A stretch of 64,000 nucleotides of DNA, taken from the IMG/VR virus record IMGVR_UViG_3300033149_002604, positions 32,914-96,913 of that record. One strand, given 5' to 3'. Source of the stretch: a virus. Below the pieces are notes generated by a model. The model searched no databases, was not told the origin of the DNA, and saw only the letters and a program-made list of their open reading frames with translations. The position numbers and the translations under genes were made by a program. Of the stretch, positions 14,381 through 64,000 are shown piece by piece. The first letter of the stretch is position 1, and every line of letters begins with the position of its first letter.

Positions 14381-15308
14381 TTATGCTACGGAAACTAATC
14401 CGTACTTTGCGTTTACACTATCTGCTGGTGTACACACGTTATTAGGATACCAGTCGTGTGAAAGTATCTCTAACACCATTGGACCACTCCACCAGTCTTC
14501 TGAACTCATGCTCATCCCACCATCTGGCCTGATGGTACATTTGGGAATCATATACACGAAGTCATTTCCAACATCGGTCCTGAAATAAAGCTGTGCAGAA
14601 CCGTATGTCAGTGCAGAAGTCATTGGCGTAAATAGTGGTGAACCAGTAATAGCAGATGCTGATTTGTCAGTACCCAGTAAGAACTTCCTGAAATTAGCTG
14701 CATTTATTTCGTCAAATGTGAAGCTAACTGTGATATTCTTCTGAGACACCACCACGTGGTCTTTGATCCTAGCACCAGTTACATCTGTAATGTAATGCTC
14801 TAAATAGGTTACATCAGGATTGATAGATATATCAGTTATATTTCCTATCAAACGGGCAGTAGTTCTAAAGTCCGAACCGACCCCGTTACTTGTGCCAGAA
14901 TCTAATGAAGCATGTGCTACTGACGCTTCAAAGTAAAGCAGTTTCTGTTATCGTGATAGCATTTAACTATCACTTCTTACGGTTTCCCGCAAGCTCAGAC
15001 CATATCATCCTCTGTATGTGTGAGAGAGGTCGGGCACTCGTGGGTTGATTATTGACTGGTCTGTCTCACAACCTGGTCGTTGAATCTTCCCCATACTTCT
15101 ATGACCTTTCAGGGGCTTGACTGCTGATTACCCAATCCAAGAACTTTTTGAACCATCACGCTTGCCGTTTCCAGCTACGTTGTGGTGTTCTTGGCTCTAA
15201 GGGTGTCCCAGCAATTCACCCGATTTAAAGTGGACCTTACGTAAGTTATTGAAATTATTAAAGATCCACAGCACCTGTCGTGTAATTTGTATAGCTAATA
15301 GTACTCAT
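14381..15308 (-). CDS. Tail tube protein, gene split by a group I intron (exons 15308-15264 and 14938-14381)
   Basis: Exon 1 begins at ATG 15308 after an AAAGGAG site and encodes MSTISYTNYTTGAVD; its frame then meets a stop. Exon 2 resumes at 14938 with LYFEASVAHASLDSG and runs to 14381. Joined, they give 200 residues without a frame problem. The joined protein aligns without a gap over the junction to the neighbouring paralogue (GAVDLYFEASVA against GKAEIYFRDGVA), which fixes the splice site. Shared motifs include NPDV(T/S)Y, FTFDEIN and IPKC. Position before G/GT and tape measure identifies a tail tube protein. An unspliced reading starting at an internal TTG (14851) would lack the first 45 residues. 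Confidence 0.85.
14939..15263 (-). ncRNA. Group I intron in the tail-tube gene (325 nt, no ORF inside)
   Basis: Conserved core elements appear in the right order on the minus strand: P region AATTGCTGGGACACCC (15216-15201), Q AATCAGCAG (15129-15121), R TTCAACGACCAGG (15084-15072) and S GATGATATGGTCTGA (15009-14995); GACCA of R pairs with TGGTC of S to form P7. For P1, exon end GUGGAU plus intron CUU pairs completely with AAGGUCCAC, with the splice-site U opposite G. The first bases of exon 2 (CUU) can pair with the same AAG (P10). The intron ends in G. Self-splicing is inferred. Confidence 0.9.
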
Positions 15309-15346: not shown

Positions 15347-16267
15347 TTAACAAACCGACTTTAACTCACCGTAAGTACACCCAGCCATTTGGTGTACCTC
15401 AATATGACATTTTCTACAAAGCGTAATGCAGTTATCTACATCTGCACTTTCTAAAGGTTCTAGTTTAACTGGAAGTATATGATGACATTGTAAATCATCT
15501 TTACTTCCACACTTTTGGCAAATCCAACCATCTCTTTCAAATACTAATTCTCTAAGTTCCGGTTGAACTTCTCTGTCTAATTTAACATCTTTAAAGTTTC
15601 GTGGATATTTTATTCTTCTGAAAACAGAACATTTCTGTTTGCATTTTTCAGAACAGTAGAAATGCTGTTCACCTGTCAGATTGTCTTTTAATGCTTGAAC
15701 CCTTCTAGTGACATCTTTTAGTTTTGGTGTGAACCATCTCCTACAGTCAGATTCATAACACCGAACCTGCAAGATCTTCTTGTCTTCAGGATCTCTTCTT
15801 ACCTCTTCACACCACTCTAGTTGTGGTGCATAAGTGTCATATAGTGGAAGTTGTTTCTTCCACACACCACCTCTCCAATTTGGATTGTTTCTTGGATCAC
15901 TTTTCCAACAAATCTTACATACAGGATGACGTTTAAAACTCTTTAATGTAGTAGAGAAAGTGTGTCCCATAGAACACCTGAGAATAAGCTGAGAGTGATT
16001 ATTTTTGTATTTTCCACCCACCCATTCACAATTGTGCTCCTTTAAATACTCTTTTACCTCAACTTCTCCCCACTTTGCACATTTTCTACATTTGGCACAG
16101 CGTTTACCTTGTTTGAATGCATAATATTTAACCCAATACTCGTGTCCTTCAGGACACCTAACTAAAATTTTAGAGTGAGAGTTTACGTATTCCTTCGACA
16201 GAAGTTTATATCCTTCACTCTCTATAAACTCTTTGACTTCATTATATGTAAACTTTCTTCTGCCCAT
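15347..16267 (-). CDS. HNH homing endonuclease, free-standing
   Basis: 306 residues. The N-terminal half has two treble-clef-like zinc repeats of the pattern HSKILVRCPEGHEY...CAKC and HSQLILRCSMGHTF...CKIC, found in phage HNH enzymes as DNA-binding parts. The C-terminal domain has CQKCG, the HH of LQCHHILPV, and CRKCHIEVH, a complete HNH nuclease with structural zinc. It lies between the two tail-tube paralogues, 38 bases upstream of the intron-bearing gene, so it may be the mobility enzyme of that intron (collaborative homing). Its own ribosome site is weak. Confidence 0.88.
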   Translation of the reverse strand: MGRRKFTYNEVKEFIESEGYKLLSKEYVNSHSKILVRCPEGHEYWVKYYAFKQGKRCAKCRKCAKWGEVEVKEYLKEHNCEWVGGKYKNNHSQLILRCSMGHTFSTTLKSFKRHPVCKICWKSDPRNNPNWRGGVWKKQLPLYDTYAPQLEWCEEVRRDPEDKKILQVRCYESDCRRWFTPKLKDVTRRVQALKDNLTGEQHFYCSEKCKQKCSVFRRIKYPRNFKDVKLDREVQPELRELVFERDGWICQKCGSKDDLQCHHILPVKLEPLESADVDNCITLCRKCHIEVHQMAGCTYGELKSVC

Positions 16268-16281
16268 TACATTCTCATTAC

Positions 16282-16851
16282 CTAAAACGGCGTTCCAAGC
16301 GTTGTGCTTGAAAAGTCTATATACCCAAAATTTGCCTGCGAAGCTGAAGAATCATTATTTACATGATATGTATCGTGATATAACACGTCTAATATCATGT
16401 TACCTTTTACCCAGTCAGTAGACCTTAGTGGAATGTTTCCATCAGCTTTCAAGACACATTTGGGTATAACATACTTGAACTTAGTTCCAGTATCTGTCAT
16501 AAACCTTAATATTGCCCGCCCTCGAATTCCTTCTTTTAGCATGACGGGCATCCTACTTGCAGAAGCATCAATACTCCCACCAAGCAGGTAGTTCTGTAAG
16601 TTGTCTTTATTTATTTCATCAAATGTGAAGTTGATTGACAGTCCATTGACGACTGTAAATTCTTCATCCTTCACCTTTTTCCCTTTTACACACTTGTAGT
16701 GTGTCACGTATGATACATCTGGATTGATATTTGCAATGTCAATATTTCCCAAGCTTACCACTTGGGGTAATGTTCCATATCCTGGTGACGCTACACCATC
16801 TCTGAAATAAATCTCTGCTTTTCCTACGGTGAGGTTGTCTATGTCGGTCAT
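16282..16851 (-). CDS. Tail tube protein paralogue, uninterrupted
   Basis: 189 residues, paralogous over its full length with the split tube gene: EIYFRDGVASPG, INPDVSYVTHY, INFTFDEIN, LRFMTDTGTKFKYVIPKC. One of the two is likely the major tube subunit and the other a variant, for example a tube-terminal or decoration-bearing form; the sequence does not tell which. Placed between the HNH gene and a glycosyltransferase gene. Confidence 0.82.
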   Translation of the reverse strand: MTDIDNLTVGKAEIYFRDGVASPGYGTLPQVVSLGNIDIANINPDVSYVTHYKCVKGKKVKDEEFTVVNGLSINFTFDEINKDNLQNYLLGGSIDASASRMPVMLKEGIRGRAILRFMTDTGTKFKYVIPKCVLKADGNIPLRSTDWVKGNMILDVLYHDTYHVNNDSSASQANFGYIDFSSTTLGTPF

Positions 16852-16861
16852 GTAAACTCAC

Positions 16862-18049
16862 CTACAAAATAAACTTCAATGTTTCATTATCTTTACCATA
16901 CTCAAATTTGTACAAATCCAAAATCTTTTCTGGTACTTTCTTCTTTGGAAGCCCTAAAAGGTGTGCATACATCCCCTCAAGACTCCAAATGAAGTTTTCC
17001 ATTACCAATTCTTCCCGTTTTTGTTTAATATTTTCCATAACTTCCAGATACCTGCTTTCTAACTGGCTGGTATCCTTTATATCTTCTATGTCATCAAATG
17101 TAAATCCTATCCCGTGTCTTCTAACATAGTCTTCGGATTGTCTACACCAAGCTGTCAGTGATGGTAAACCAGCATGTAGGTATTCTTGAAGTTTGTTAGT
17201 CATTGTCAGATTTACTTGTCTTTCAGTTGCTTCTTTATTATTGAAGATATGAATTCCATACTTAAATTTGGTTAGTGCTTGCATCATTTCATCATAGTCT
17301 GTGGGTGGGTACAAGACTGCACCAATAAACTGCAATGTAGTATATGCTGTCATATTTCCACAGAATATGTGAACTTCATTTCCCAATTCTACCAACCTTC
17401 TAAATATCCAAGCAAGGTTTCTGTAAGGAAATGTCTGGTTTGCAGCAACATCATCTACTGGGTTAATCCCACCTTCATATACTAGACCTTTCCGTTTTGG
17501 AATATCTTCTTCATTGTATTCTATGATACCTTTATTGCAATAAGGGTATAAAACCATTGTTGGTTTGTTTAATGCGTGAAGTCTTTCTGTCCTTTGACGA
17601 ATGGGTTCTGAAACATAAATTAGTGCATCCGCAGCTAAGAACATTTCCCGTTCGTCAATGGGGATTATGCGTTCGAGTCTGCGAATGGAGTCAAGATCAT
17701 GGAGGTCGCAGACCAGTTTTACCCTGTCTTGTACTCCCATTTCATTAATCACCTGACGAATCCACACAACAGGCCTATCGGGCTCATTTGAGTAATCGAG
17801 AATCCTACAACCTATATCAATCATCATTTTTATTAGATTTTTAAATTGTCTCTCATCCTTATACACATGATATGTGTCATAAGATTCTATTCCATAAGGA
17901 ACTTTATTTCCTATTCCATGAACCTCATATCCTAATTTCTTTAAAGCCCTTCCTCGCTTCACTACCCTCACGCAGTGGTGCATTCCGATCAGGGCTATCT
18001 TAAGAGGATTACCATTCTCATCCAAGATTGGTTTTTCATAATCTGTCAT
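16862..18049 (-). CDS. Glycosyltransferase, GT-B fold (GT4-like)
   Basis: 395 residues. The N-terminal Rossmann-like start (KIALIGMHHCVRVVKRGRALKKLGYEVHGIG), a central LVCDLHDLDSIRR and UADALIYVSEP-type segment (aa about 130-160), then KGLVYEGGI and a C-terminal TNKLQEYLHAGLPSLTAW (residues about 293-312) give the order of a GT-B enzyme of the GT4 type; the last motif is the usual sugar-nucleotide binding acid region, here E299. No signal peptide or membrane segment, so it acts in the cytoplasm. It is embedded between tail genes, which suggests modification of a virion protein or of host surface sugars. Donor and acceptor unknown. Confidence 0.75.
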   Translation of the reverse strand: MTDYEKPILDENGNPLKIALIGMHHCVRVVKRGRALKKLGYEVHGIGNKVPYGIESYDTYHVYKDERQFKNLIKMMIDIGCRILDYSNEPDRPVVWIRQVINEMGVQDRVKLVCDLHDLDSIRRLERIIPIDEREMFLAADALIYVSEPIRQRTERLHALNKPTMVLYPYCNKGIIEYNEEDIPKRKGLVYEGGINPVDDVAANQTFPYRNLAWIFRRLVELGNEVHIFCGNMTAYTTLQFIGAVLYPPTDYDEMMQALTKFKYGIHIFNNKEATERQVNLTMTNKLQEYLHAGLPSLTAWCRQSEDYVRRHGIGFTFDDIEDIKDTSQLESRYLEVMENIKQKREELVMENFIWSLEGMYAHLLGLPKKKVPEKILDLYKFEYGKDNETLKFIL

Positions 18050-18058
18050 AATTAACTC

Positions 18059-18844
18059 CTAATAATCGAATTTATATCCATAAATATGTTCTATTTCTTC
18101 AGGACATGGACCAACAAAATCTAAAAAATCTCCCGTCTTGTTGGTAGCAAACCTTATTGTATTACAAGATGGTTGTCTTGTACATGTCAGTCCCATTTTA
18201 CAGAATTTTTCTACTACAAATTCTACATCTTCAATCGGAAATCCTTCACTACAAATTCTAACATACTTCTTGTTGTGACTACATTTGCTTAAGCTGCCGT
18301 CTCCTATATACCAGTGAAGAACTATTGTTGGTGTCAGTTCTAAGTCTCTTGGAATTATTTTCTTTCCATTTTTATACATATATCTCCTAATATCTAACAA
18401 TTCTACATAATGCTTCGTCCAGTATTGATAATAAACTGCACCACTTTTTTTGTGTACAAACCTATTAATTTTTCCCATAGTTTCTATGTTGTTCTTTTCA
18501 AAGACACTCTTGATGTATAAAACAATATCTAAATATTTAGATGAGTGAGAGTATGATGCTGTACGTTGTATATTTTTCTTATCTGATACACTAAAGATTC
18601 CACCATCTCCCAAAACATTTCCCTGTATGAACTCCATCATTTCATCGGAAATTGTTATCGGAGGATTTTTTCTACAGAGAAAAAGAGTTTCAGACAAACT
18701 TCGTATTGGAATATCATTTTTTATTAAATGTTTACGAATCGTAGATGATGCCACACCTACCAATTTTGCCATTTCTGTTTGGTTCAATTTCTCAACAACA
18801 TACTTCTGATATAACCAATCTTTATCTTTCCACAATTTGTTCAT
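18059..18844 (-). CDS. LAGLIDADG homing endonuclease, free-standing
   Basis: 261 residues when started at the ATG at 18844, which follows a GGGGGG stretch; a GTG at 18892 would extend it but lies inside a hairpin. Residues near the start form a helix-turn-helix (QTEMAKLVGVASSTIRKHL). Two LAGLIDADG helices are visible: FIQGNVLGDGGI and LHWYIGDGSLSK, so one chain forms a pseudo-dimer nuclease. It lies between a tail terminator-like gene and a glycosyltransferase gene and is not inside a recognisable intron. A lone mobile endonuclease that protects its insertion site is likely. Confidence 0.85.
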   Translation of the reverse strand: MNKLWKDKDWLYQKYVVEKLNQTEMAKLVGVASSTIRKHLIKNDIPIRSLSETLFLCRKNPPITISDEMMEFIQGNVLGDGGIFSVSDKKNIQRTASYSHSSKYLDIVLYIKSVFEKNNIETMGKINRFVHKKSGAVYYQYWTKHYVELLDIRRYMYKNGKKIIPRDLELTPTIVLHWYIGDGSLSKCSHNKKYVRICSEGFPIEDVEFVVEKFCKMGLTCTRQPSCNTIRFATNKTGDFLDFVGPCPEEIEHIYGYKFDY

Positions 18845-18872
18845 TTTATCCCCCCATTCAGGATCATGCTGG

Positions 18873-18898
18873 TTGGGGAGTGGAATGGGCACTCCCCA
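18873..18898 (-). terminator. 9-bp GC-rich hairpin after the tail terminator-like gene
   Basis: TGGGGAGTG and CACTCCCCA flank a seven-base loop. It lies 28 bases after the stop at 18926 and just upstream of the endonuclease ATG. No clear U run. It could terminate, protect the upstream message, or hold down translation of the endonuclease from the GTG that it encloses. Confidence 0.5.
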
Positions 18899-24264: not shown

Positions 24265-24732
24265 CTATTTTCCGACAATATTATTAAGCATTGGAGCAAT
24301 ACTGCTATCAACATTCTGATTGTCGTTTCCAAATCTGGTACATTCAATCTTGTATATTTTACATATAGCAGGAATCATGTTGTTCAGAAGTTCAACATCT
24401 TGGTAGTAAACTTTCATATACTTATTAACTAAACACATTAACTGTAAGCTGGTAGCAAGTCTTTCAATATCTACACAGTCACTTTTGTAGCGTAAATTTT
24501 GCAGCTTTTTTATTCCTAGAAGTTTACCAACCTTAAGTAGATCATACTTACGTTGGGCATATCTGGCTTCATCACAAAGTCTAAAACCATATTTCTTTTC
24601 TATCTGCATTGGTACTTCAGTGTCATCACACACTATCAGAACTTCATAATGGAAATCGCACTTTTGTATTTCCGATGCTAAGTGGTAAATCCAATCATAG
24701 GTGTTAAAGGAAACTATTAGTGCTTTATCCAC
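24265..24732 (-). CDS. Possible degenerate PIG-L-like deacetylase fold, function unknown
   Basis: 155 residues. The N-terminal strand, KALIVSFNTYDWIYHLASEI, then VLIVCDD and an R-rich helix ARYAQRKYDLLKVGKLLGIKKLQNLRY resemble the order of PIG-L / LmbE N-acetylglucosamine deacetylases. The metal-binding HPDDE signature expected after the first strand reads FNTYDW, so the usual His-Asp-Asp ligands are absent. If related it is not a standard deacetylase. Last gene of the sugar-related cassette. Confidence 0.4.
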   Translation of the reverse strand: MDKALIVSFNTYDWIYHLASEIQKCDFHYEVLIVCDDTEVPMQIEKKYGFRLCDEARYAQRKYDLLKVGKLLGIKKLQNLRYKSDCVDIERLATSLQLMCLVNKYMKVYYQDVELLNNMIPAICKIYKIECTRFGNDNQNVDSSIAPMLNNIVGK

Positions 24733-24778: not shown

Positions 24779-25468
24779 TTACTGTGAGATCATTTTATTA
24801 TTTACAACCATATAGATTCTTCCATTTATGACTTCACAATTTATAACCATATTTAAATCTAAAAAGAATTTAATGAAAAATCCCAGACTTTTTACTGAAA
24901 TGTGTTCTAATTGATCTACACAATTAGGAAACTCAGGAGTATAAATCAAAAGATGACCACTCTTTTTCATCTTTGAAAGTGCCCACTTAGTAATTTTCTT
25001 ATACAGCTCATCAGTTACATGTTCAGCAAAGTCTATCTGCAATATAGTATCAAAATCGTCATCTACTTCTGGAAACCAACTAAAATCACAACATATGGAT
25101 TCAATCCTATTATCTAAGTAGGGCTTAAATGCTTCAATTGAATACTTATTACCATCAATACATACAATCTTCGATAAATCGGGTTTTCTTCTGAGAAGAA
25201 ACATTGCTCCTAATCCTGGTCCACCAACATCTAATACTTTACCTTTAATTGTTCCACCAAACATTTTCACCAGATTGTTCCATTTGTTTATGTGGACATT
25301 GGAAAGTCTTGGAAATCTTTCATCATATTCTTCTTTTAAAAGCTTTATGTATTCATGGGCTGTATACTTTCCGAATCTAGTTTCAATACAATACTTTTCA
25401 AAACACCTTTTAGGATCTCCATATTTCCTTAAGTGCCACTCTTCTGAAGTAGCTTCATAAACAATCAT
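24779..25468 (-). CDS. Class I SAM-dependent methyltransferase
   Basis: 229 residues from ATG 25468, which overlaps the stop of the upstream gene as ATGA and has GGAG six bases upstream. Motif I is GKVLDVGGPGLGAMFLL (about residues 69-85), followed by KIVCIDGNKY (motif II acid), DTILQIDFAEHV and LLIYTPEFP (motif IV/VI region). No membrane segments. Coupled to the four-domain fusion protein, so its acceptor is likely the same glycan or peptide. Substrate unknown. Confidence 0.72.
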   Translation of the reverse strand: MIVYEATSEEWHLRKYGDPKRCFEKYCIETRFGKYTAHEYIKLLKEEYDERFPRLSNVHINKWNNLVKMFGGTIKGKVLDVGGPGLGAMFLLRRKPDLSKIVCIDGNKYSIEAFKPYLDNRIESICCDFSWFPEVDDDFDTILQIDFAEHVTDELYKKITKWALSKMKKSGHLLIYTPEFPNCVDQLEHISVKSLGFFIKFFLDLNMVINCEVINGRIYMVVNNKMISQ

Positions 25469-28422
25469 AGTTTCTCCAACCAATTTATGTTGTCTGCTGT
25501 TACATTCTTTATAGCAAAATCAACCCGTGGTAGATCACACCAGTTACATAGTCCATAAAATTCACATCTTAAATCATCTAAATTTATAGGTCTAAAGTCT
25601 TTGATATTGCAGATGGGTTTGATGTTGTAGTATAGTCTGTAATGACAATTGAAATAGTTTCCAGACGGATCAATTATTAAAGAAAATATTCCATGTGGAC
25701 ACATTACTGTTGTTCCTTGGCTTTGCCCACACATTTTCCTGTAGAAGGTATAATCATAGATTCCACACATTCTTCTAGCGGATTCTTGGTCCCAGTAACC
25801 CTCATTAGGATATAAGCAATCGGGACGGAAATCTTTAGCATATCCATTTTCTTCAGTCCAGAATCCTAAGAATGGGGGGGATTTTAGTTCTGGAAGAGAA
25901 TTTCTAACCTTTTCTATCCTCTCTTTCCATTTAGTTTCTATTTCAGGGATATAAACAAATGCGATTTGGTCAACATACAACCCACAATCTCTCATTTCAT
26001 TTATTCTAGAAACATATTCCTCTGGTTCCAGTGCATGTGGATGATATGAAGTATTGATTCTTAATGTAGAACCAAATCTAGGTTTAAGTTGTTTGAATTT
26101 CTTACTTTCCCAAAATTCCCCCTTACAATTCGTAGTAATTGTTATATAATAATCTTCAAGATTGTTGACTATTTCAACCAAATCTTTGTGTAATGTTGTT
26201 TCCCCACCTATTAGAGACAATCTTTGCCTTGGTTCGTGATATAAATTATTCCACCAATTTAATATTTCTTTACCACTTAATTCTTCACGTGGAACGTGTT
26301 TACCCCTACCATCTACGATACAAAACGGACAATTTCCATTACATCTAAATGTAATCATGTGTGCCCAATAACACATTGGGTAATAATAGTTGCTAGGTAA
26401 AACTTTTAGCTGTGTTGTTCTTTTATTAAAGTCTGTTACCAAACTTCTTAATCTGTTTATACGTTTTTCAATATCACATTCTGCAAGTTCAAAGTCAATA
26501 AACTTGAATTCCCCATCTTTAATCAATATATTATTTATGTTCAAATCAAATATTCCAACTGCTTCTAATATTTTATGGGCTTCATCAATTATCTTATAGT
26601 ACAGTTCTTTGTTTAAAGATCCTATCTCACCAAGATTTCTCCAATCAAAATATTCAAATAAAATAAATTGATCTTGTATAGCTATTGGTTTTACCACATG
26701 CTTAGAAGCCTTATAAGCTGCAACAGTTCTATCAAATTGATCATCTGCAAAGTTGACTAGACTATCATTGGGATAAAATTTTTCACTTAACCAATCGTTA
26801 TACAGTTGTTCTTTTACAAAATATTTGTTTCCATTGCTGTCTGATACTGTGAAATACCTTACATCTTCTTTGGATTTATGCCTATTACGAAATTGATCTA
26901 CTATTTGATATTCTTTATCTCCAAACCTTATCTTCTTATTCTTCATGTGTTCAGGAAGTTCATCAGAAAACCAAAACAGCCATCTTTCCACACCATGAAT
27001 TTTTTCAGAACAAATCGTTTCAACGTGTGTTGAAATACCTAATTTCTCTGAAACCCATTTTGGAAATTCGGTTCTATGGTCTGTAAACTTTGGAATAAGA
27101 TTTATCCAAGGGGTCCATTCACTACCCTCTTCATTAGATTGTCCCATATCAAATATAACATTCTTGGAAATCCTACCTACTTCTGAAAGAATCTGATCAG
27201 CCACTTCAGCAGAATACTGTTCATAGATATGATGATGGACACTCATGTAAAAAGTGAATTCAAATTCCTTATCCTTGAATTCTTTCAACCTATCTAATAA
27301 ATCTTTTTCTAGCAGTTCGAATGTACATTTATTATTAGCAGCCTGTGCCTTCTTTGCAGATTCGATCATCTTAGGATCTGTATCTAGCCCTAAAACATCA
27401 AATCCCATTTGGGCAGCTAGGATGGAAAAATACCCGTTGTTGCAACCAATATCTAAAATCTTACCTGACTTTTTCTTAACAAGTATAGGTTCTATGTATC
27501 GCCATCTTTTAGCTGAATCCCGCTTTCCACCACACTGTCCTGTAACAGACGAATTATATGATGTATCTACGTTATTGAAATAATTAAGAATGTCCTGCTT
27601 GTACTTATTCCAGTTCAAAATTTCAGTTAAATCATTAGCATTTCCGGCTACCTGTACATTACCGAATAGTGGTATGGCTTGGTGAACTGGGGTGCTTTTA
27701 AACATAGCCAAGAGATTTTTCCTAAATGCACCTGCAATGTGCATCACCACACTGTCTATTGCACATATAAAATCTACATAAGCAATAAGTGCTTTACTGA
27801 ATCGCATGTCATCTTCTGGTAATTCGATGGATCGGGAACATGATTTACGACCAAATTCAAATATCGTAAACTGGTTGAACATTTCGTTCATCATCTTTTC
27901 TATTATGTCTGATTCAAATTCTTTGGGTGGATTTCCAGCTTTATTGTGTAGAATCAGCCAAGGTTTGTCATACTGGCTAAGATATTCCATTGCTTTTTTA
28001 GCATAGTCTTCACGGAAGGTAAGTTCGGTGATGAGTTCTTCTATCCTATCAAATTTAATTCCCAATTCATCTGCTGCCCTGAATATCTTGTGCATCTTGA
28101 ATCCAGCTTGTCGTAGTAAGGGAAGGGTTATGATGTTGTCATACTTGCCTAAATATTCATACTTGACTGATCTGTCAAGTTCCCTAATATTGTCAAGATA
28201 CCCATCATAAGACTTTACATTTTCCCAAGGATCAGGAAGGATTGGCAAGAATTCATCTACAAAGGTAAATTCTAGTAGTTCTTCAACCTTTGAACCAAAC
28301 CTTTGTAGACTTGCTAGGGAAATTTCAGTATCAGAACAGATTTGCTTGTACTTTCTTAAAGCTGGGGTTAATAAGATATGGTCGCCTAAGCCGTGGGGGT
28401 AAACTATTAGAATCTTTGACAT
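25465..28422 (-). CDS. Four-domain fusion: GT9-like glycosyltransferase, methyltransferase, LPS-kinase-like, radical SAM
   Basis: 985 residues from ATG 28422 (GAGG upstream, stop of the previous gene overlapping as TAATG). Residues 2-283: KILIVYPHGLGDHILLTPAL and CAIDSVVMHIAGAF, the ends of a GT9 heptosyltransferase-like fold. Residues about 315-490: methyltransferase with GKILDIGCNNGYF. Residues about 495-665: kinase-like domain of the LPS-core or RIO type with Lys537, a catalytic-loop Asp626/Asn631 (FDLNINNIL) and Asp643 in FIDFE. Residues about 680-985: radical SAM with CNGNCPFC (Cys694, 698, 701), GGE at 739-741 and a Cys-rich C-terminus (Cys926, 938, 953, 959, 962) like a SPASM or Twitch auxiliary cluster site. 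I know of no standard enzyme with this order. It may build or modify a phosphorylated, methylated sugar structure, or a peptide, during infection. Confidence 0.85.
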   Translation of the reverse strand: MSKILIVYPHGLGDHILLTPALRKYKQICSDTEISLASLQRFGSKVEELLEFTFVDEFLPILPDPWENVKSYDGYLDNIRELDRSVKYEYLGKYDNIITLPLLRQAGFKMHKIFRAADELGIKFDRIEELITELTFREDYAKKAMEYLSQYDKPWLILHNKAGNPPKEFESDIIEKMMNEMFNQFTIFEFGRKSCSRSIELPEDDMRFSKALIAYVDFICAIDSVVMHIAGAFRKNLLAMFKSTPVHQAIPLFGNVQVAGNANDLTEILNWNKYKQDILNYFNNVDTSYNSSVTGQCGGKRDSAKRWRYIEPILVKKKSGKILDIGCNNGYFSILAAQMGFDVLGLDTDPKMIESAKKAQAANNKCTFELLEKDLLDRLKEFKDKEFEFTFYMSVHHHIYEQYSAEVADQILSEVGRISKNVIFDMGQSNEEGSEWTPWINLIPKFTDHRTEFPKWVSEKLGISTHVETICSEKIHGVERWLFWFSDELPEHMKNKKIRFGDKEYQIVDQFRNRHKSKEDVRYFTVSDSNGNKYFVKEQLYNDWLSEKFYPNDSLVNFADDQFDRTVAAYKASKHVVKPIAIQDQFILFEYFDWRNLGEIGSLNKELYYKIIDEAHKILEAVGIFDLNINNILIKDGEFKFIDFELAECDIEKRINRLRSLVTDFNKRTTQLKVLPSNYYYPMCYWAHMITFRCNGNCPFCIVDGRGKHVPREELSGKEILNWWNNLYHEPRQRLSLIGGETTLHKDLVEIVNNLEDYYITITTNCKGEFWESKKFKQLKPRFGSTLRINTSYHPHALEPEEYVSRINEMRDCGLYVDQIAFVYIPEIETKWKERIEKVRNSLPELKSPPFLGFWTEENGYAKDFRPDCLYPNEGYWDQESARRMCGIYDYTFYRKMCGQSQGTTVMCPHGIFSLIIDPSGNYFNCHYRLYYNIKPICNIKDFRPINLDDLRCEFYGLCNWCDLPRVDFAIKNVTADNINWLEKL

Positions 28423-29339
28423 TAATCGCCTCGCATTATGGTTGTTATTATCTTTTCCGTAACATCCTTCCAAGTATGCAACTTTCTAACCTTTTCTAGT
28501 CCTTCCCTTGCAATTGCTTCCCTTTCATCGTCATGTTTCAGGTAATATTCTACCAGTTCCATGAATTCACTTTCATTCTTGAACCAAACCAAATTCTTCT
28601 TATTGTCAAAGAACAAACTTAAATCATCACAGAATTCTGAAAGTAAAAATCCACCACAACCTAATGTAGTTACCACACGATCGCTGAATATGTTGGAATG
28701 AACTAGATTTAGAACTATTTTATACTTGTTGATAGTCTTTCTTAAGTCAGCTAACACTATTGGTGGATTAGGTGAAATTTCTTCAGGCCAACCTTGACCG
28801 TAAACGTCTATCAGGTCTAAGTGTTTAGAAACAAAATTCAATCTTTTAGCTGTAGCACTTCCAAAGAACAGAATTTTATCAATCTTGTTGGTATTATCTT
28901 CTGGATAGAATATATCTGGATCATAGCCTTCTATAATTAGGTAGGACTTCCCAGTATATTTATGTCTATCAAAGAATTCAACTACTTCACTTGAAGTTGC
29001 GCTTGCAAAATTTACCCTAGTCACGTATTGTTCTGCCCGAATAGCTTCAGCAACCCTAATATTGTCCATGAACCAGTACCAAGTTGTACATTGTTCAGTC
29101 ACTTTTTGAACAATTGCTGGGTTGACGCCATTTATTTTGCTGAATAATACCAATTCAGGTTTGTATCTGTTGACGGCCCACAATAGATAATCATAGAATA
29201 CTTCTTTTCCTTCCTTGGAAATGATTGTTCTGTAATTTATAGGAATTACACCCCAACCATTCTGCTTAAAACCTTTTGCCATCCAGACATTGGTGCTTTC
29301 TGGTTTGTCTAGTACACCAACGATCATTACTTTTGGCAT
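28422..29339 (-). CDS. CgeB-like glycosyltransferase
   Basis: 305 residues. The C-terminal region YKIVLNLVHSNIFSDRVVTTLGCGGFLLSEFCDDLSLFF is the signature of the CgeB / Glyco_trans_1_2 family (GT-B enzymes). The N-terminal half has KVMIVGVLDKPESTNVWMAKGFK and WYWFMDN. Overlaps the upstream glycosyltransferase gene by 13 bases and the downstream fusion gene by one codon, so the three are made together. Donor sugar unknown. Confidence 0.8.
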   Translation of the reverse strand: MPKVMIVGVLDKPESTNVWMAKGFKQNGWGVIPINYRTIISKEGKEVFYDYLLWAVNRYKPELVLFSKINGVNPAIVQKVTEQCTTWYWFMDNIRVAEAIRAEQYVTRVNFASATSSEVVEFFDRHKYTGKSYLIIEGYDPDIFYPEDNTNKIDKILFFGSATAKRLNFVSKHLDLIDVYGQGWPEEISPNPPIVLADLRKTINKYKIVLNLVHSNIFSDRVVTTLGCGGFLLSEFCDDLSLFFDNKKNLVWFKNESEFMELVEYYLKHDDEREAIAREGLEKVRKLHTWKDVTEKIITTIMRGD

Positions 29340-30340
29340 GGGACTTCTCCAATTATTTGGTTTAGGTTTTCCGTATGCTTATTGACTACATCTTCATATT
29401 GCTGCCTTTTCAAATTTTCTACTTCATTCAGTCTATCAAGCATTGTCGCTATGTCAGATAGGATGGTTTCAGCATCAATAGCCCGATAATCTGAAACATA
29501 TCTAAAACTTACTGGTACATCAAACCTGTTTTCCAACACAGCATGTCTATGTTTTTCATGTCCAATAATATAGCTGGGACAACAGCTTTGTAAACTTACA
29601 TGTGTAAGACCAGATTGACTACTAACTGAACATACTGCTGAATTTAGATAGGTTACAATTTGATCCATTTTATCTTCACCATCGTAATCAATCAGGTTGA
29701 TTACATTGTCTGCCTTGTACCCTGATAGGAATGAACCAGATGGTGTACCACAAAGTACCACAATGAAGTATTTTCTTAACCCTTCTACAACTTCAGCCCA
29801 TACAAATTCGGGTACATTTCTAAAAGCAGCTCTACTCCTCCCTCGCGGCATTACACAAATAATATCCCGTTCTAGTTTAACTTTAGGTCTTACAAGTTTC
29901 CTGAAAATCTGTGGTGCATAATTTATAAAAGCATTACATCCACGTGGGGGAAATATTTCTATAGTCTTTGTCCAGTCATAAAAGGTTCTGCAATATTCTA
30001 TGATTTTAGAATATACATGTGGGGGTGTTAGGCTTCCTGGTGGTGATCCAAGTAGTGGTGCTTCATAACAATCCCGTTCCAATTCCATACCATAAAACCA
30101 GTCGGGAAGTTCTATCGTATAGTCTACGAAGTCTTCTACGAATATGTGGTAATCCAATTCTGTGAACAGTATGAATTTTCTGTCCTTATATTCATTGTGC
30201 TTAAGAAACCTCAGATGTGCTTGAAAGCGGCTTAAAAACCACCCCAATTCACCATAAAAGAAAGATGCAACACAAGGTTCATTTATGTACAAATCCTTAT
30301 TTATTATCTGGCTGTGCTGGATTGTCTGTGTTCCTTCCAA
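29327..30340 (-). CDS. GT9-like glycosyltransferase-type protein
   Basis: 337 residues. Starts at TTG 30340, with AGGAG eight bases upstream. Residues around 165-270 (ICVMPRGRSRA, FIVVLCGTPSGS, CSVSSQSGLTHVSLQSCCPSYIIG) have the order of the C-terminal half of GT9 enzymes, in which a Ser/Asp-Ser-Gly-x-x-H turn binds the sugar nucleotide. The N-terminal half is not recognisable. Overlaps the small membrane protein gene by 44 bases. First sugar gene of the cassette in transcription order. Confidence 0.65.
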   Translation of the reverse strand: MEGTQTIQHSQIINKDLYINEPCVASFFYGELGWFLSRFQAHLRFLKHNEYKDRKFILFTELDYHIFVEDFVDYTIELPDWFYGMELERDCYEAPLLGSPPGSLTPPHVYSKIIEYCRTFYDWTKTIEIFPPRGCNAFINYAPQIFRKLVRPKVKLERDIICVMPRGRSRAAFRNVPEFVWAEVVEGLRKYFIVVLCGTPSGSFLSGYKADNVINLIDYDGEDKMDQIVTYLNSAVCSVSSQSGLTHVSLQSCCPSYIIGHEKHRHAVLENRFDVPVSFRYVSDYRAIDAETILSDIATMLDRLNEVENLKRQQYEDVVNKHTENLNQIIGEVPCQK

Positions 30341-31544: not shown

Positions 31545-33188
31545 CTACTGCGTTGATATGCCTCCTGAGATGGAGACGCCGTGGAAATTACCCCATCTAT
31601 ATTCGTAAGCACCGATGTCCCAGGCTGAGCCTTGAGGTCTAGAGATATTATCAAGATCATAATTGTAAGTAGTACCTAAATCTATCCCAGAATCTACACA
31701 ATCGGAACTGCTTCTTAAATAGTAATTGTTATTTGCTGGATCTATAAAACTGGCTTGTTTGTTATCTCCCGCAGAATCATGACTATTTACACCTTCATTC
31801 TGCTCAGCTATAAAATCGTCGAATAACTTCATTCCACCAGAATAATAATAATTTATATTGGTACAACCAATATCTGCTATGCACCATCTGACTACACGTT
31901 GGTCGCCATTCCCTTGGTCGAAAAGGTTGTAATCTCCTGTATAAATCAAATCAGAAGAATCATAAACACATAAATCGCCGTCGTTTGTGTCTCCATCAAT
32001 ATTATTCTGATAAAGGACGCAATTTTTCATTGTAACAAGAGTATCTCTATTGCTATATGAGGGTGCACTAAGATATACACCAAATGAGTTGTTAGCAAAT
32101 GTACAATTATATATATAGACTGTGGGGCCATTATATACATGGCACCCAATGTTATTCTCATAAGCCAAACAGGAAACAAAATAAAACCTTGAATTGCCAG
32201 TAGAATCCGCTGCATTAGCAGCAAAACCATCATCATTGTTATATGAGCGGCATCGTTTAAAAATGATGTTATCGTCTAATACACTATTCGACACAGTCCC
32301 ATTGTCAAAACCATCTCCTTCATTATCGTAAGCTAAACAATCGCTTATAGTAATATCATGAGAATCAGTTATCCAGAAGCCATGTTTTAGGTTCCCACCA
32401 CCGCCACCACCTCTTGGTGTATCTCCATTGTTATGTGAAATACAATTAGATATAATCCCATTACTACAACCATATGTAGAACCCCCAATGTAGAATCCAG
32501 TCGTCAAATCATTATCTCCACCATCGGCTTCACACCATTCAATTGTAAAACTGTCTTGTCGTTGTATAACATAGCTCTGTTTTCCGCTATTTATACACTT
32601 AACATGGCTCATCTCTAGACCACTACATTTTGAGGCTTCAGATGTTCCTAGTGCTCTTATTGAATAATAATCGGCTCCAGAAACAATAAAACCGTCGTAT
32701 GAACTACTTATACCGGCGATTCCACTTATTGTTAGATAAGGAATAGGTGTGATGGTTCCATCTGGTAAAATTCCAATATTTATTAACGCTTGGTATTCAT
32801 CAGAATATGATGCGTTACTATCTGTAAAAATTACAGATCCAGTTCCCCAATTTATGTCACGTTTTATGGAAATTCTGTTACTTGGTGTAGCAGAATTAGA
32901 ATAGTAATCTGTGTTTATATAAATAACACCAATATGTGTAGTGCCAGACTTTATAAAAATCAAATCTCCAGGTTGAATAGTAACTGAAGGGCAGTTGTAA
33001 CCGGTATTATCCAATTTTCGTGTGCCAGGAATATGTTGCCAAGGCGTAGAAGTTGACAATCCATCATTAGAGTCAGAACCACTACTAGGGTCAACATAGT
33101 ATGTACTGGCCCAAGAACAAAATAAGGAAACAAATAGAAAGATCAATAAAAATATACTAACAATAAAAATTCTTTTATTAATCAACAT
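31545..33188 (-). CDS. Secreted right-handed beta-helix protein
   Basis: 547 residues. N-terminal signal peptide: basic start, a hydrophobic run IFIVSIFLLIFLFVSLF, cleavage likely after SWA. The body has the repeated short turns of parallel beta-helix proteins (SGLEMSHVKCINSG, SNGIISNCISHNNG, DITISDCLAYDNEGDG, VYIYNCTFANNSFG, VTMKNCVLYQNN), about eight coils, and ends SRPQGSAWDIGAYEY, a common C-terminal cap. Such folds bind or cleave polysaccharide. A signal peptide on a phage beta-helix is unusual. Overlaps the upstream gene by 11 bases; fourth-coupled member of a block with export signals. Confidence 0.8.
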   Translation of the reverse strand: MLINKRIFIVSIFLLIFLFVSLFCSWASTYYVDPSSGSDSNDGLSTSTPWQHIPGTRKLDNTGYNCPSVTIQPGDLIFIKSGTTHIGVIYINTDYYSNSATPSNRISIKRDINWGTGSVIFTDSNASYSDEYQALINIGILPDGTITPIPYLTISGIAGISSSYDGFIVSGADYYSIRALGTSEASKCSGLEMSHVKCINSGKQSYVIQRQDSFTIEWCEADGGDNDLTTGFYIGGSTYGCSNGIISNCISHNNGDTPRGGGGGGNLKHGFWITDSHDITISDCLAYDNEGDGFDNGTVSNSVLDDNIIFKRCRSYNNDDGFAANAADSTGNSRFYFVSCLAYENNIGCHVYNGPTVYIYNCTFANNSFGVYLSAPSYSNRDTLVTMKNCVLYQNNIDGDTNDGDLCVYDSSDLIYTGDYNLFDQGNGDQRVVRWCIADIGCTNINYYYSGGMKLFDDFIAEQNEGVNSHDSAGDNKQASFIDPANNNYYLRSSSDCVDSGIDLGTTYNYDLDNISRPQGSAWDIGAYEYRWGNFHGVSISGGISTQ

Positions 33189-36699: not shown

Positions 36700-38476
36700 T
36701 TAGCTAGAAGCAATTGCATTAGCATACCAAAATCGCCAATTGGTTACTACTCCACCATAGCGACAATTGATAGTAATGAAATAATCAAGCGACACCTCAT
36801 CGATGAACGTATCAATGATAGGATCTTGGCGGTTGCTTGCAATTAGTCCTTCCTTGGCTTTTCCTAAGAACCACCCATCAGTGTCACTCAGATAACTCCA
36901 CTCTATCGGATTCACCAACCCACGGAGCACATTGACATCATTGTCTGCACTTCCAGGGATCAGTGTAGAATTCAGAAGCACCTGAGCAGTAAACTTCAGT
37001 GCGGGTGGAATCAAAAGGGTGTCTGGAAGTATTTCTACAACATTTCCCCTTTCATCCCTATTGTTGGTAGAAGTCATAGTAAGATATACTGACCTCAAAT
37101 TAGATTCCGTCAAAGAATTGGAAGCACCATAATTAGAATAGGTGTTCCCAACCTTATCGGGGTGTGCAGTAGAGAAGAAAGGTTTATTGTCATAGATCAA
37201 GTTCCCTGTAGGATCATCAATAACATTAGCAATGGTGTTATTAAAAACATCATTGCCAGCAGTCATTGCCCCGTAGTTGAAGAACTTGGCATAGAACTTT
37301 TCCTTGGTTCTAAGATATGCCTTACCCCAAGAACCAACAGCCTGTTGGATAAGGTTAGACTTCTGGCTGTCTTCGATAGATTCTTTGGAAAATCTAGCAA
37401 TCCTTCCAAAAGTCCTGTTCTTGCAGATTACAGTGTAACCTTCCATTGGGGCATCTGGCTGCAAGTCTTCACTTTCAGGTTTTTCCACCAAGTCACCCAT
37501 TCCGATAGCTGTGGTGAATTTCTCATCACATTTGTTACTGTCTATTGACAGGACTGGTCATTTCTGCCAGTCTCCACACATTGCTGTGTGGGTCGGACTA
37601 TATCACTACTAGATTTATCATCTAGCAGGTTGGCGTACGGACCTAGTTTGTATCTCATACAAGGAACTATATATGGTTTGATAATTTCTACAAATCTGTC
37701 ATTGTGTTTATTTCGAAGTCTTAATCTATATTTATAATTACCAAGTTTCGTTTTTCCTGCCTTATTGATATTCCAATCGAGATCAAACTTCAATTTAAGG
37801 CTTTTTTTGAGAAGAAGTTGATTAGCATAATCATAAGCTTCGGTACTTAGATAAAATGTAACATCTTTGCCATTAGGATTAAAACCATGTGTGCCGTTAT
37901 CCATGAATAAAATTGCTAATGAAAGTGGATTTAGTTTCTTTACGATATATTCATCTAAGACCTTTCTACCATTATAATACATTCTCTTTCTAAGTTTGGT
38001 AAGCATTGGATGTTGTCTTGTTCCTAGATGGTATCCATAAAATATCTTACCATTTAATTCTCTCTTCGTTTTGTGTATTGAAGATGATGTTATTTTATCA
38101 AGGAACTTTTTCTTCCAGAGCATATATTCGTATTGAGCTTCACAGTGGCTCATCTGAAAAAAAGCTTCACTTCTACCTTTTCTACACGACAAACACCCAT
38201 CTCCCATTACCATTGCTATTATCACACTTCTAAGTTCTTCTCTATTTAGGTCCATAGTCTCTACACCCTCCTTAAAGGATTGGCTCGGTATTGTCCTCAG
38301 GGGATTTCCACCGAATTTAGCCAACTACGCGCATAAGTTTACGCTGCATCGGAATCAACTACATCAAATATATTTTCATACACGGGAGCTTTTTGCTCAT
38401 AGGCTTCCCAGAAGAAACCATAGGCCGTCTTCTTCATATTTTCAGTAAAATCATCACGTCTTACTCCGCCTGCCAT
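36700..38476 (-). CDS. Major capsid protein, gene split by a group I intron (exons 38476-38341 and 37526-36700)
   Basis: Exon 1 encodes MAGGVRRDDFTENMKKTAYG to DVVDSDAA plus the first base of a Tyr codon; a stop follows at once. Exon 2 restarts with AT GAG AAA, giving AAYEKFTTAIGMGDLVEKPE. Joined length 320 residues with no frame problem. YENIFDVV, YEKFTTAIG and CKNRTFGRIARFSKESIEDSQ, with FFSTAHPDKVGNTY and LPDTLLIPPALKFTAQ, match the gpT-type HK97-fold capsid proteins. Neighbours are decoration, scaffold and portal genes. Without splicing no full capsid subunit could be made, so the intron must be active. Confidence 0.88.
37527..38340 (-). ncRNA. Group I intron in the capsid gene (814 nt) with an endonuclease ORF
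   Basis: Splice sites are supported by base pairing: exon end GCGU pairs with intron GCGC (splice-site U opposite G, P1), and exon 2 start AUGAG pairs with CUUAU that lies directly before it (P10). The last intron base is G. P/Q-type sequence GGTGGAAATCCCC and GAGGACAATACCGAGCC lies near the 5' end, and an S-type GTGATATAGTCC near the 3' end can pair through TAGT with ACTA of an upstream R-type segment (P7). The endonuclease frame covers most of the middle and overlaps the 3' core. Confidence 0.85.
37542..38255 (-). CDS. Intron-encoded LAGLIDADG homing endonuclease
   Basis: 237 residues from ATG 38255, preceded by AAGGAGGG. Two LAGLIDADG-type helices: VIIAMVMGDGCLS near the start and LAILFMDNGTHG in the middle, with basic beta segments between (YGYHLGTRQHPMLTKLRKRM). 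The last 25 residues are encoded by the intron's own 3' core. It should cut intronless copies of the capsid gene and so spread the intron. A longer frame to 38324 would begin inside the 5' core and is not needed. Confidence 0.87.
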   Translation of the reverse strand: MDLNREELRSVIIAMVMGDGCLSCRKGRSEAFFQMSHCEAQYEYMLWKKKFLDKITSSSIHKTKRELNGKIFYGYHLGTRQHPMLTKLRKRMYYNGRKVLDEYIVKKLNPLSLAILFMDNGTHGFNPNGKDVTFYLSTEAYDYANQLLLKKSLKLKFDLDWNINKAGKTKLGNYKYRLRLRNKHNDRFVEIIKPYIVPCMRYKLGPYANLLDDKSSSDIVRPTQQCVETGRNDQSCQ

Positions 38477-63262: not shown

Positions 63263-63389
63263 CCCTTATGCTTCAATCCGAAGACCTATAGCACCACCAA
63301 CAAAACCCCACGAACCCAAAGTAAAATATAAGAGAAGCAGACTAAAAAAGGAACTGAGGAAGGAGATAGAAGAATGGACATCGAACTAG
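63225..63389 (+). CDS. Small basic protein (54 aa)
   Basis: MEKRRKRRRKDLDPYASIRR, then a Pro-rich part and KELRKEIEEWTSN. Overlaps its neighbours. TTGGAGGT site. Unknown function. Confidence 0.5.
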   Translation: MEKRRKRRRKDLDPYASIRRPIAPPTKPHEPKVKYKRSRLKKELRKEIEEWTSN

Positions 63390-64000
63390 AAGATTTAAAA
63401 TACATTGACAAATTCAAAAATTTACGTGTCCTTGTAATTGGGGACGTAATGTTGGATCAATATATTATAGGAACTGCGACACGTATATCACCAGAAGCCC
63501 CAGTTCCTGTTATAGAACTAGAAAGACAATGTTATTCGGTAGGTGGTGCTGGAAACGTTGCCAGAAATGTAGCTTTGTTGGGAGCAAAAACATACTTGTT
63601 TGGTTCTGTAGGAAAAGACTTTGGTGCTTCGAAAATAAGAGAGTGTTTGCACAACTATGATAATATAACGTACAAGTTTACCATATCAGACACCTTTGAA
63701 ACCACCACAAAGACAAGAATTATTGCAGATGGGGTTCAAATGATAAGGTTGGATCGGGAAGGAGATTCAGATAGGGATCAAACAGCACAGCTACAAAAAG
63801 AAAACCTAATCACATTCATAAAGGAAGAAGTAAAAGAAGTAGATGCTATAATTATATCAGATTACAACAAAGGAATCCTTCATGAACATATAACACCAAT
63901 AATAAAGGAAAATCTAGATGGTTTGGTATTTGTAGATGCTAAACCAGACAATTTACACAAATTTTATAATGTTCCCGCAATAATAAAACCAAACAAAAAA
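63374..64000 (+). CDS. hldE: Heptose-7-phosphate kinase / HldE (RfaE) N-terminal domain, 3' end cut
   Basis: The frame from ATG 63374 stays open to the window end, 209 codons. LVIGDVMLDQYIIGTATRIS, PEAPVPVIELE, GGAGNVARNVALLGA, GSVGKDFG and RIIADGVQMIRLDRE are the PfkB-fold kinase signatures of HldE, which phosphorylates D-glycero-beta-D-manno-heptose 7-phosphate on the way to ADP-heptose for LPS. Whether a second adenylyltransferase domain follows is beyond the window. Its link with the GT9-like proteins of the late arm is an inference. Symbol used for family likeness; function untested. Confidence 0.85.
   Translation, partial: MDIELEDLKYIDKFKNLRVLVIGDVMLDQYIIGTATRISPEAPVPVIELERQCYSVGGAGNVARNVALLGAKTYLFGSVGKDFGASKIRECLHNYDNITYKFTISDTFETTTKTRIIADGVQMIRLDREGDSDRDQTAQLQKENLITFIKEEVKEVDAIIISDYNKGILHEHITPIIKENLDGLVFVDAKPDNLHKFYNVPAIIKPNKK

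Follow-up and report, generated by a model that had tools for sequence, protein, structure and literature searches.

A single gene encoding a multi-domain enzyme was identified in a 64,000-nucleotide window of the IMG/VR virus record IMGVR_UViG_3300033149_002604 (positions 32,914 to 96,913 of that record). On the minus strand of the window (25465-28422), one open frame of 985 amino acid residues without internal stop contains four enzyme regions: a GT9-like glycosyltransferase, a class I S-adenosylmethionine (SAM) methyltransferase, a probable kinase and a radical SAM enzyme. In a sister phage, the two ends of this polypeptide are conserved and a different module occupies its middle. Our tentative interpretation is that this modular phage enzyme assembles a (hepto)glycan and caps it, and that a virion protein would be the most likely acceptor. 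Because the 96,913-bp source fragment also holds genes for terminase, portal, capsid, major tail protein and a J-like central fibre, the fused gene belongs to a siphovirus-like tailed phage.

The longest version of the open reading frame (ORF) covers 25465-28473 and would encode 1002 residues if a TTG start were taken. The ATG at position 28422 shares one base with the stop codon of the upstream gene (TAATG) and gives 985 residues. When the same DNA was simulated with a Markov model (200 x 20 kb), stop-free runs reached at most 150 codons, versus the 985 open codons of the fused gene. Moreover, base composition and codon use of this gene are the same as those of the phage core genes.

Profile searches of each segment supported the proposal of the first-pass annotation that four domains are joined in one polypeptide, although not to the same degree: the methyltransferase and the radical SAM domain exceeded their Pfam cut-offs, the GT9 segment reached its cut-off and the kinase remained below it. 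All of the motifs named in that annotation were found, in the order GLGDHILLTPAL, LDIGCNNGYF, D-x4-N, FIDFE, CNGNCPFC and Cys-rich tail. Similar to the GT9 heptosyltransferases (PF01075), the first region possesses a GxGD motif near its N-terminus (GLGD at residues 11-14, within GLGDHILLTPAL at 11-22) and a C-terminal DSxxxHxA region (AIDSVVMHIAGAF at 221-233). Both GLGD and AIDSVVMHIAGAF are invariant in the sister orthologue. PF01075 matched with an E-value of 5.5e-4 and 19.8 bits in the whole protein (cut-off 22) and with 22.0 bits when the segment was scanned alone. A GT9 assignment is likely, but the phage version is divergent and fused, and its donor and acceptor are putative. The methyltransferase exceeded the curated Pfam cut-off (E = 2.8e-11), with LDIGCNNGYF at 323-332. 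The kinase assignment is probable, as judged by K537, D626-x4-N631 and D643 of FIDFE (641-645) together with a sub-threshold match to the RIO1 profile (E = 2.1e-3 in the whole protein; 2.6e-4 and 21.1 bits alone, against a cut-off of 22).

The radical SAM region matched PF04055 with an E-value of 9e-9 and 36.2 bits (cut-off 29.5). C694, C698 and C701 of its core motif CNGNCPFC (694-701) were invariant across 30 sequences. The Cys tail spans residues 886-962 and is arranged as C908-x12-G-x4-C926 followed by C953, C959 and C962, of which C959 is Thr in the sister orthologue. The auxiliary-cluster subgroup SPASM/Twitch is defined by C-x(9-15)-G-x4-C with additional Cys ligands after it in a C-terminal domain; the Pfam SPASM profile matched one of 13 radical SAM family members (E = 0.005). 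An AlphaFold model of the domain built with 30 sequences had a predicted local distance difference test score (pLDDT) of 78.7 and a predicted template modelling score (pTM) of 0.81, and its best Foldseek matches in the PDB were the SPASM/Twitch enzymes anSME, SkfB, SuiB, PqqE and SpeY, with template modelling (TM) scores of 0.44 or lower. AlphaFold modelling of the full protein from its single sequence gave no usable model (pLDDT 34). No curated NCBIfam family reached its cut-off for the first radical SAM member scanned, and other members matched the generic core only. Known anti-phage defence families likewise showed only generic methyltransferase and radical SAM core matches to the fused enzyme.

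A fused orthologue of 852 residues was found on a sister siphophage contig, IMGVR_UViG_3300016457_000123, which was reached via terminase relatives. The identities between this orthologue and the fused enzyme were 56% over residues 3-292 and 53% over residues 667-984. In place of the methyltransferase and kinase, residues 290-488 of the orthologue form a sulfotransferase (Pfam Sulfotransfer_1, E = 3e-17, 63.3 bits versus 22). The orthologue lies in the same neighbourhood, in which identities between the two phages were 82% for the portal, 80% for the capsid, 66% for the GT9-like neighbour, 47% for the adjacent glycosyltransferase, 60% for a 155-residue protein and 76% for the glycosyltransferase of the tail module. 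At the slot of the separate methyltransferase beside the fused gene, the sister phage has an unrelated methyltransferase. The two phages thus share the scaffold but differ in two decoration slots. As the ends of the fused enzyme are conserved while a sulfotransferase takes the place of the methyltransferase-kinase, the results suggest that the middle is a swappable capping cassette within a GT9-radical SAM scaffold. The four-domain order described in the first-pass annotation is thus present in this phage but is not a fixed one, and what was proposed there as an "assembly line" is more aptly described as a GT9-radical SAM scaffold whose capping module can be exchanged.

The sister contig also bears on whether the frame is an artefact in which separate genes were joined by assembly or sequencing error. 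The DNA is of metagenomic origin, the gene lies on a single contig and its exact four-domain order was met once. However, an independent contig carries a fused GT9-radical SAM orthologue with the same synteny and 53-56% identity at both ends, which disposes of an assembly error, and the composition resembles that of the phage core over a frame open for 985 codons. An artefact is therefore extremely improbable, and the uninterrupted frame reported previously is confirmed.

Alignment and pattern scans of viral contigs returned only the one fused orthologue with its different middle. No third family member was found in the viral scans, and single-protein scans with the whole protein or the radical SAM segment found nothing. 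Searches of phages and plasmids by tblastn did not identify any fused relative. The CNGNCPFC pattern was found at 32 loci, nearly all of which were tiny unrelated ORFs. The fused family is either rare in the viral contig collection or beyond the reach of the patterns used. In addition, many IMG/VR contigs had short open frames (approximately 15-36 codons) with CNGNCPFC-x-GC at their end, which may represent a family of very small peptides rich in Cys.

The middle module of the fused enzyme resembles WbdD, the methyltransferase-kinase that terminates O9a chains of E. coli with methyl-phosphate (PMC3482155; PDB 4azs, 4uw0). Comparison with solved structures by phmmer aligned 110 residues of the methyltransferase to WbdD without gaps (E of about 5e-7), in which D82, H132 and H133 of WbdD align with D347, H397 and H398 of the fused enzyme. 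In WbdD, the two His residues and R203 build the phosphate site; mutants still phosphorylate but fail to methylate, and H132A and H133A lose methylation (PMC3482155). The fused enzyme has His at both of these phosphate-site positions as well as the SAM-contacting Asp. As in WbdD, its methyltransferase is directly followed by the kinase region, itself a call below the profile cut-off, and the spacing of the kinase triad (D626/N631/D643) is nearly that of D351/N356/D369 of WbdD. Different from WbdD, the kinase of the phage-encoded protein has no detectable homology, GT9 and radical SAM domains flank the module, and the C-terminal coiled-coil ruler is absent, as the radical SAM domain comes directly after the kinase. 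Because it lacks the ruler and detectable kinase homology, the fused phage protein is not a member of the WbdD family.

Similar to the fused enzyme, ORF6 of the Klebsiella pneumoniae O7 locus combines a methyl-phosphate terminator with glycosyltransferase modules in one polypeptide (PMC11231755). Its glycosyltransferase modules, however, are of the GT2 family, and it has a coiled coil, a kinase unlike that of WbdD and no radical SAM domain, and acts in a cellular O-antigen pathway. The earlier view that each motif belongs to a separate enzyme family was too strong on two counts: methyltransferase and kinase are a known pair (WbdD, PMC3482155; O7 ORF6, PMC11231755), and GT9 and this radical SAM family form a recurrent gene pair in bacteria.

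A profile of the two phage radical SAM domains was used to search for bacterial relatives in a sample of 395 genomes, all from the same phylum as a Deltaproteobacteria metagenome-assembled genome. The taxonomic centre of this sample came from a scan of genome contigs, the single match of which was judged to be due to chance and served no other purpose. Stand-alone radical SAM proteins of about 290 residues were found in 11 of the 395 genomes, and in one bacterial class, that of genome G127, 29 of the 63 genomes possessed a relative. They align with the phage domain over its whole length, including the core CxxxCxxC and the C-terminal Cys set, with identities of 24-31%. In 27 of 31 bacterial loci, which are related and hence do not represent 31 independent events, the radical SAM gene is preceded within 400 nt by a GT9 gene of the same orientation, so that the gene order mirrors the domain order of the phage fusion. 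In 19 of the 31 loci, there was a type IV pilin-like gene within about 5.3 kb, and PilT/PilC-like genes were present in several. Different from the phage enzyme, these are stand-alone genes with no capping module between them, and orthology between their GT9 partners and the phage GT9 is not demonstrable. An alignment that mixed GT9 and radical SAM sequences was misaligned and was discarded.

Loci L090-L100 and L131-L150 showed a recurrent set, by motif, of GT9, radical SAM, B12-type radical SAM, a PDH-E1-like pair and a second radical SAM gene, often beside type IV pilus genes. The contig of locus L093, which has terminase and portal genes, carries a radical SAM relative and, by eye, a second radical SAM enzyme, a thiamine-diphosphate enzyme and an aminotransferase, and is perhaps from another sugar-modifying phage. 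A related radical SAM protein of 488 residues (E of about 1e-10) is encoded by the 735-kb phage LR756501.1, at most about 11 kb from an HldE-type kinase gene; such kinases also occur in some cyanophages.

GT9 enzymes classically use ADP-heptose. As the phage also encodes HldE domain I, it may secure its own heptose donor, which supports the link to heptose chemistry drawn in the first-pass annotation. On this basis, the GT9 domain would transfer a sugar, probably heptose from ADP-heptose, and the kinase would phosphorylate the newly added sugar. The adjoining methyltransferase could then methylate that phosphate to produce a methyl-phosphate cap, as WbdD does, while the radical SAM domain may add a further radical modification to the sugar or to a residue of the acceptor. 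Other sugars would be supplied by the three neighbouring glycosyltransferases (Table 1). The cassette lies on the strand of the structural genes, flanked by capsid and head-tail adaptor genes and with starts that overlap stops, a position from which we infer late expression together with the structural genes. The most likely acceptor during infection would be a virion protein whose assembly takes place in the cytoplasm (tail tube, capsid or fibre), and soluble enzymes encoded beside virion genes would fit virion glycosylation. Mycobacteriophages Che8, Corndog and Myrna offer a precedent, in which phage-encoded glycosyltransferases decorate capsid and tail-tube proteins (PMC12363180). In the papers searched, no report of mycobacteriophage glycosylation with a fused radical SAM, kinase or sulfotransferase domain was found. 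By exchanging the cap, methyl-phosphate for sulfate, related phages might alter surface charge or antigenicity and keep the scaffold.

Several observations weigh against this interpretation. The GT9 profile match is at its cut-off and the kinase match is under its own; the searches found no kinase homologue, and in a PDB search the kinase segment had no sequence match to any WbdD chain. The WbdD alignment stops short of R203, for which R480 is a candidate counterpart. Since His residues at the two WbdD positions occur in some other methyltransferases too (PMC3482155), their match supports, but does not prove, WbdD-type chemistry. The phage GT9 half stands apart from the GT9 partners in bacteria, and their orthology is not claimed because the profile-profile comparison was weak (probability 45%). 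The HldE gene is about 35 kb from the fused gene, on the other strand and truncated. Finally, the pilin genes near the bacterial relatives point at least equally to host surface filaments.

The strongest competing explanation is the same chemistry directed at the host surface. With type IV pilin or lipopolysaccharide (LPS)/O-antigen as acceptor, the phage would reuse a host filament pathway, so that receptors are altered and superinfection or re-adsorption of progeny is blocked. The bacterial relatives are chromosomal and associated with GT9 and pilin-like genes at the frequencies given above, GT9 and HldE belong to the classical enzymes of LPS, and WbdD terminates an O-antigen. Portal relatives are also enriched in the same bacterial class (9/16 versus 2/379). 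These relatives, however, are distant (27-29%) and derive partly from one apparent shared integration site, so that the host assignment is suggestive only. Moreover, the late structural block, to which the cassette belongs, is a less expected place for an exclusion gene, and no membrane or lipid-carrier enzyme was recognized beside the cassette. A virion acceptor is ranked slightly ahead of the host surface. That one radical SAM-dependent protein glycosylation pathway is common to bacterial type IV pili and phage virions, with a GT9-radical SAM scaffold and a swappable charged cap (methyl-phosphate or sulfate), is a more doubtful proposition.

Alternatively, the radical SAM domain, with its SPASM/Twitch-like part, might first modify a ribosomal peptide or another protein, as in the biosynthesis of ribosomally synthesized and post-translationally modified peptides, and the other domains might tailor the product. 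Its nearest solved structures by sequence and fold include the peptide maturases SkfB, SuiB and PqqE as well as anSME, but MoaA and the dehydrogenase SpeY match too, and the TM-scores do not exceed 0.44. No precursor-peptide gene was noticed, though no dedicated search was made, and the neighbours are glycosyltransferase genes; this explanation is unlikely. Radical SAM enzymes also serve nucleotide chemistry, e.g., QueE and viperin, and weak matches to QueE-type and pVip profiles would accord with a small diffusible molecule or modified DNA bases as the product instead of a glycan. Those matches, however, reflect the generic radical SAM core, the NCBIfam ones being far below family cut-offs, and the cassette shares its synteny with glycosyltransferase genes rather than with genes of replication or nucleotides, which makes such a product very unlikely.

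Apart from the cassette, the window has two paralogous major tail protein genes (phrog_807; 14381-14851 and 16282-16851) around an HNH gene (15347-16267), and the second of them is immediately preceded by a glycosyltransferase gene. A group I intron (Rfam RF00028; 14976-15294, minus strand) lies beside a major tail protein gene. Because of this intron and because the sister-phage orthologue (L044:3599-4165) is 31 residues longer at its N-terminus, the tail gene is probably split by the intron. Two further genes, 18059-18892 in the tail module and 37542-38324 beside the capsid gene, were by eye homing-endonuclease-like; the former is 84% identical in the sister phage.

Table 1. Regions of the fused enzyme and associated genes in the 64,000-nucleotide window.
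Feature	Position	Strand	Remarks
Fused enzyme	25465..28422	-	985 residues, ATG at 28422; stop included
GT9-like glycosyltransferase region	27553..28422	-	Residues 1-290; PF01075 at cut-off for segment; 56% identity to sister orthologue
Class I SAM methyltransferase, WbdD-like	26968..27540	-	Residues about 295-485; D324, D347, H397, H398; Pfam and phmmer to WbdD structures
Kinase-like region	26428..26940	-	Residues about 495-665; K537, D626-x4-N631, D643 of DFE; RIO1 profile and motifs
Radical SAM with Twitch/SPASM-like C-terminal Cys domain	25465..26424	-	Residues 667-985; Pfam, 13- and 30-member alignments, AlphaFold model
Separate methyltransferase	24779..25483	-	Pfam; overlaps 3' end of fused gene; no sister-phage match at 1e-5, MetW-like Methyltransf_11 protein there
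155-residue protein, conserved in cassette	24265..24732	-	60% identity in sister phage; no informative family match
Glycosyltransferase (Glyco_trans_1_2)	28422..29339	-	PF13524, 2e-25; 47% in sister phage; 1-base overlap with fused gene
GT9-like or GT-B-like protein (weak assignment)	29327..30340	-	TIGR02195, E = 0.012; 66% in sister phage
GT4-like glycosyltransferase, tail module	16862..18049	-	PF13439, 1.3e-4, below cut-off; 76% in sister phage; adjoins phrog_807 major tail protein gene
HldE/RfaE domain I, heptose-7-phosphate kinase	63374..64000	+	TIGR02198, E = 3.6e-55; cut by record end

Taken singly, the parts of the fused enzyme all belong to known kinds. Their combination, the exchange of the cap and the GT9-radical SAM pair beside pilin genes appear undescribed, and no description of the fused architecture was found in the literature searched, the coverage of which leaves out most subscription journals. 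If our interpretation is correct, radical SAM chemistry and capping by methyl-phosphate or sulfate would join the known repertoire of phage glycosylation. Combinatorial glycan chemistry would also gain a useful model in a capping module that is naturally exchanged inside one enzyme. Many bacteria carry the apparently undescribed GT9-radical SAM gene pair next to type IV pilin genes, and the product of this pair is now open to testing. The exchanged capping part in the sister phage suggests mix-and-match decoration of the virus particle or of the host surface.

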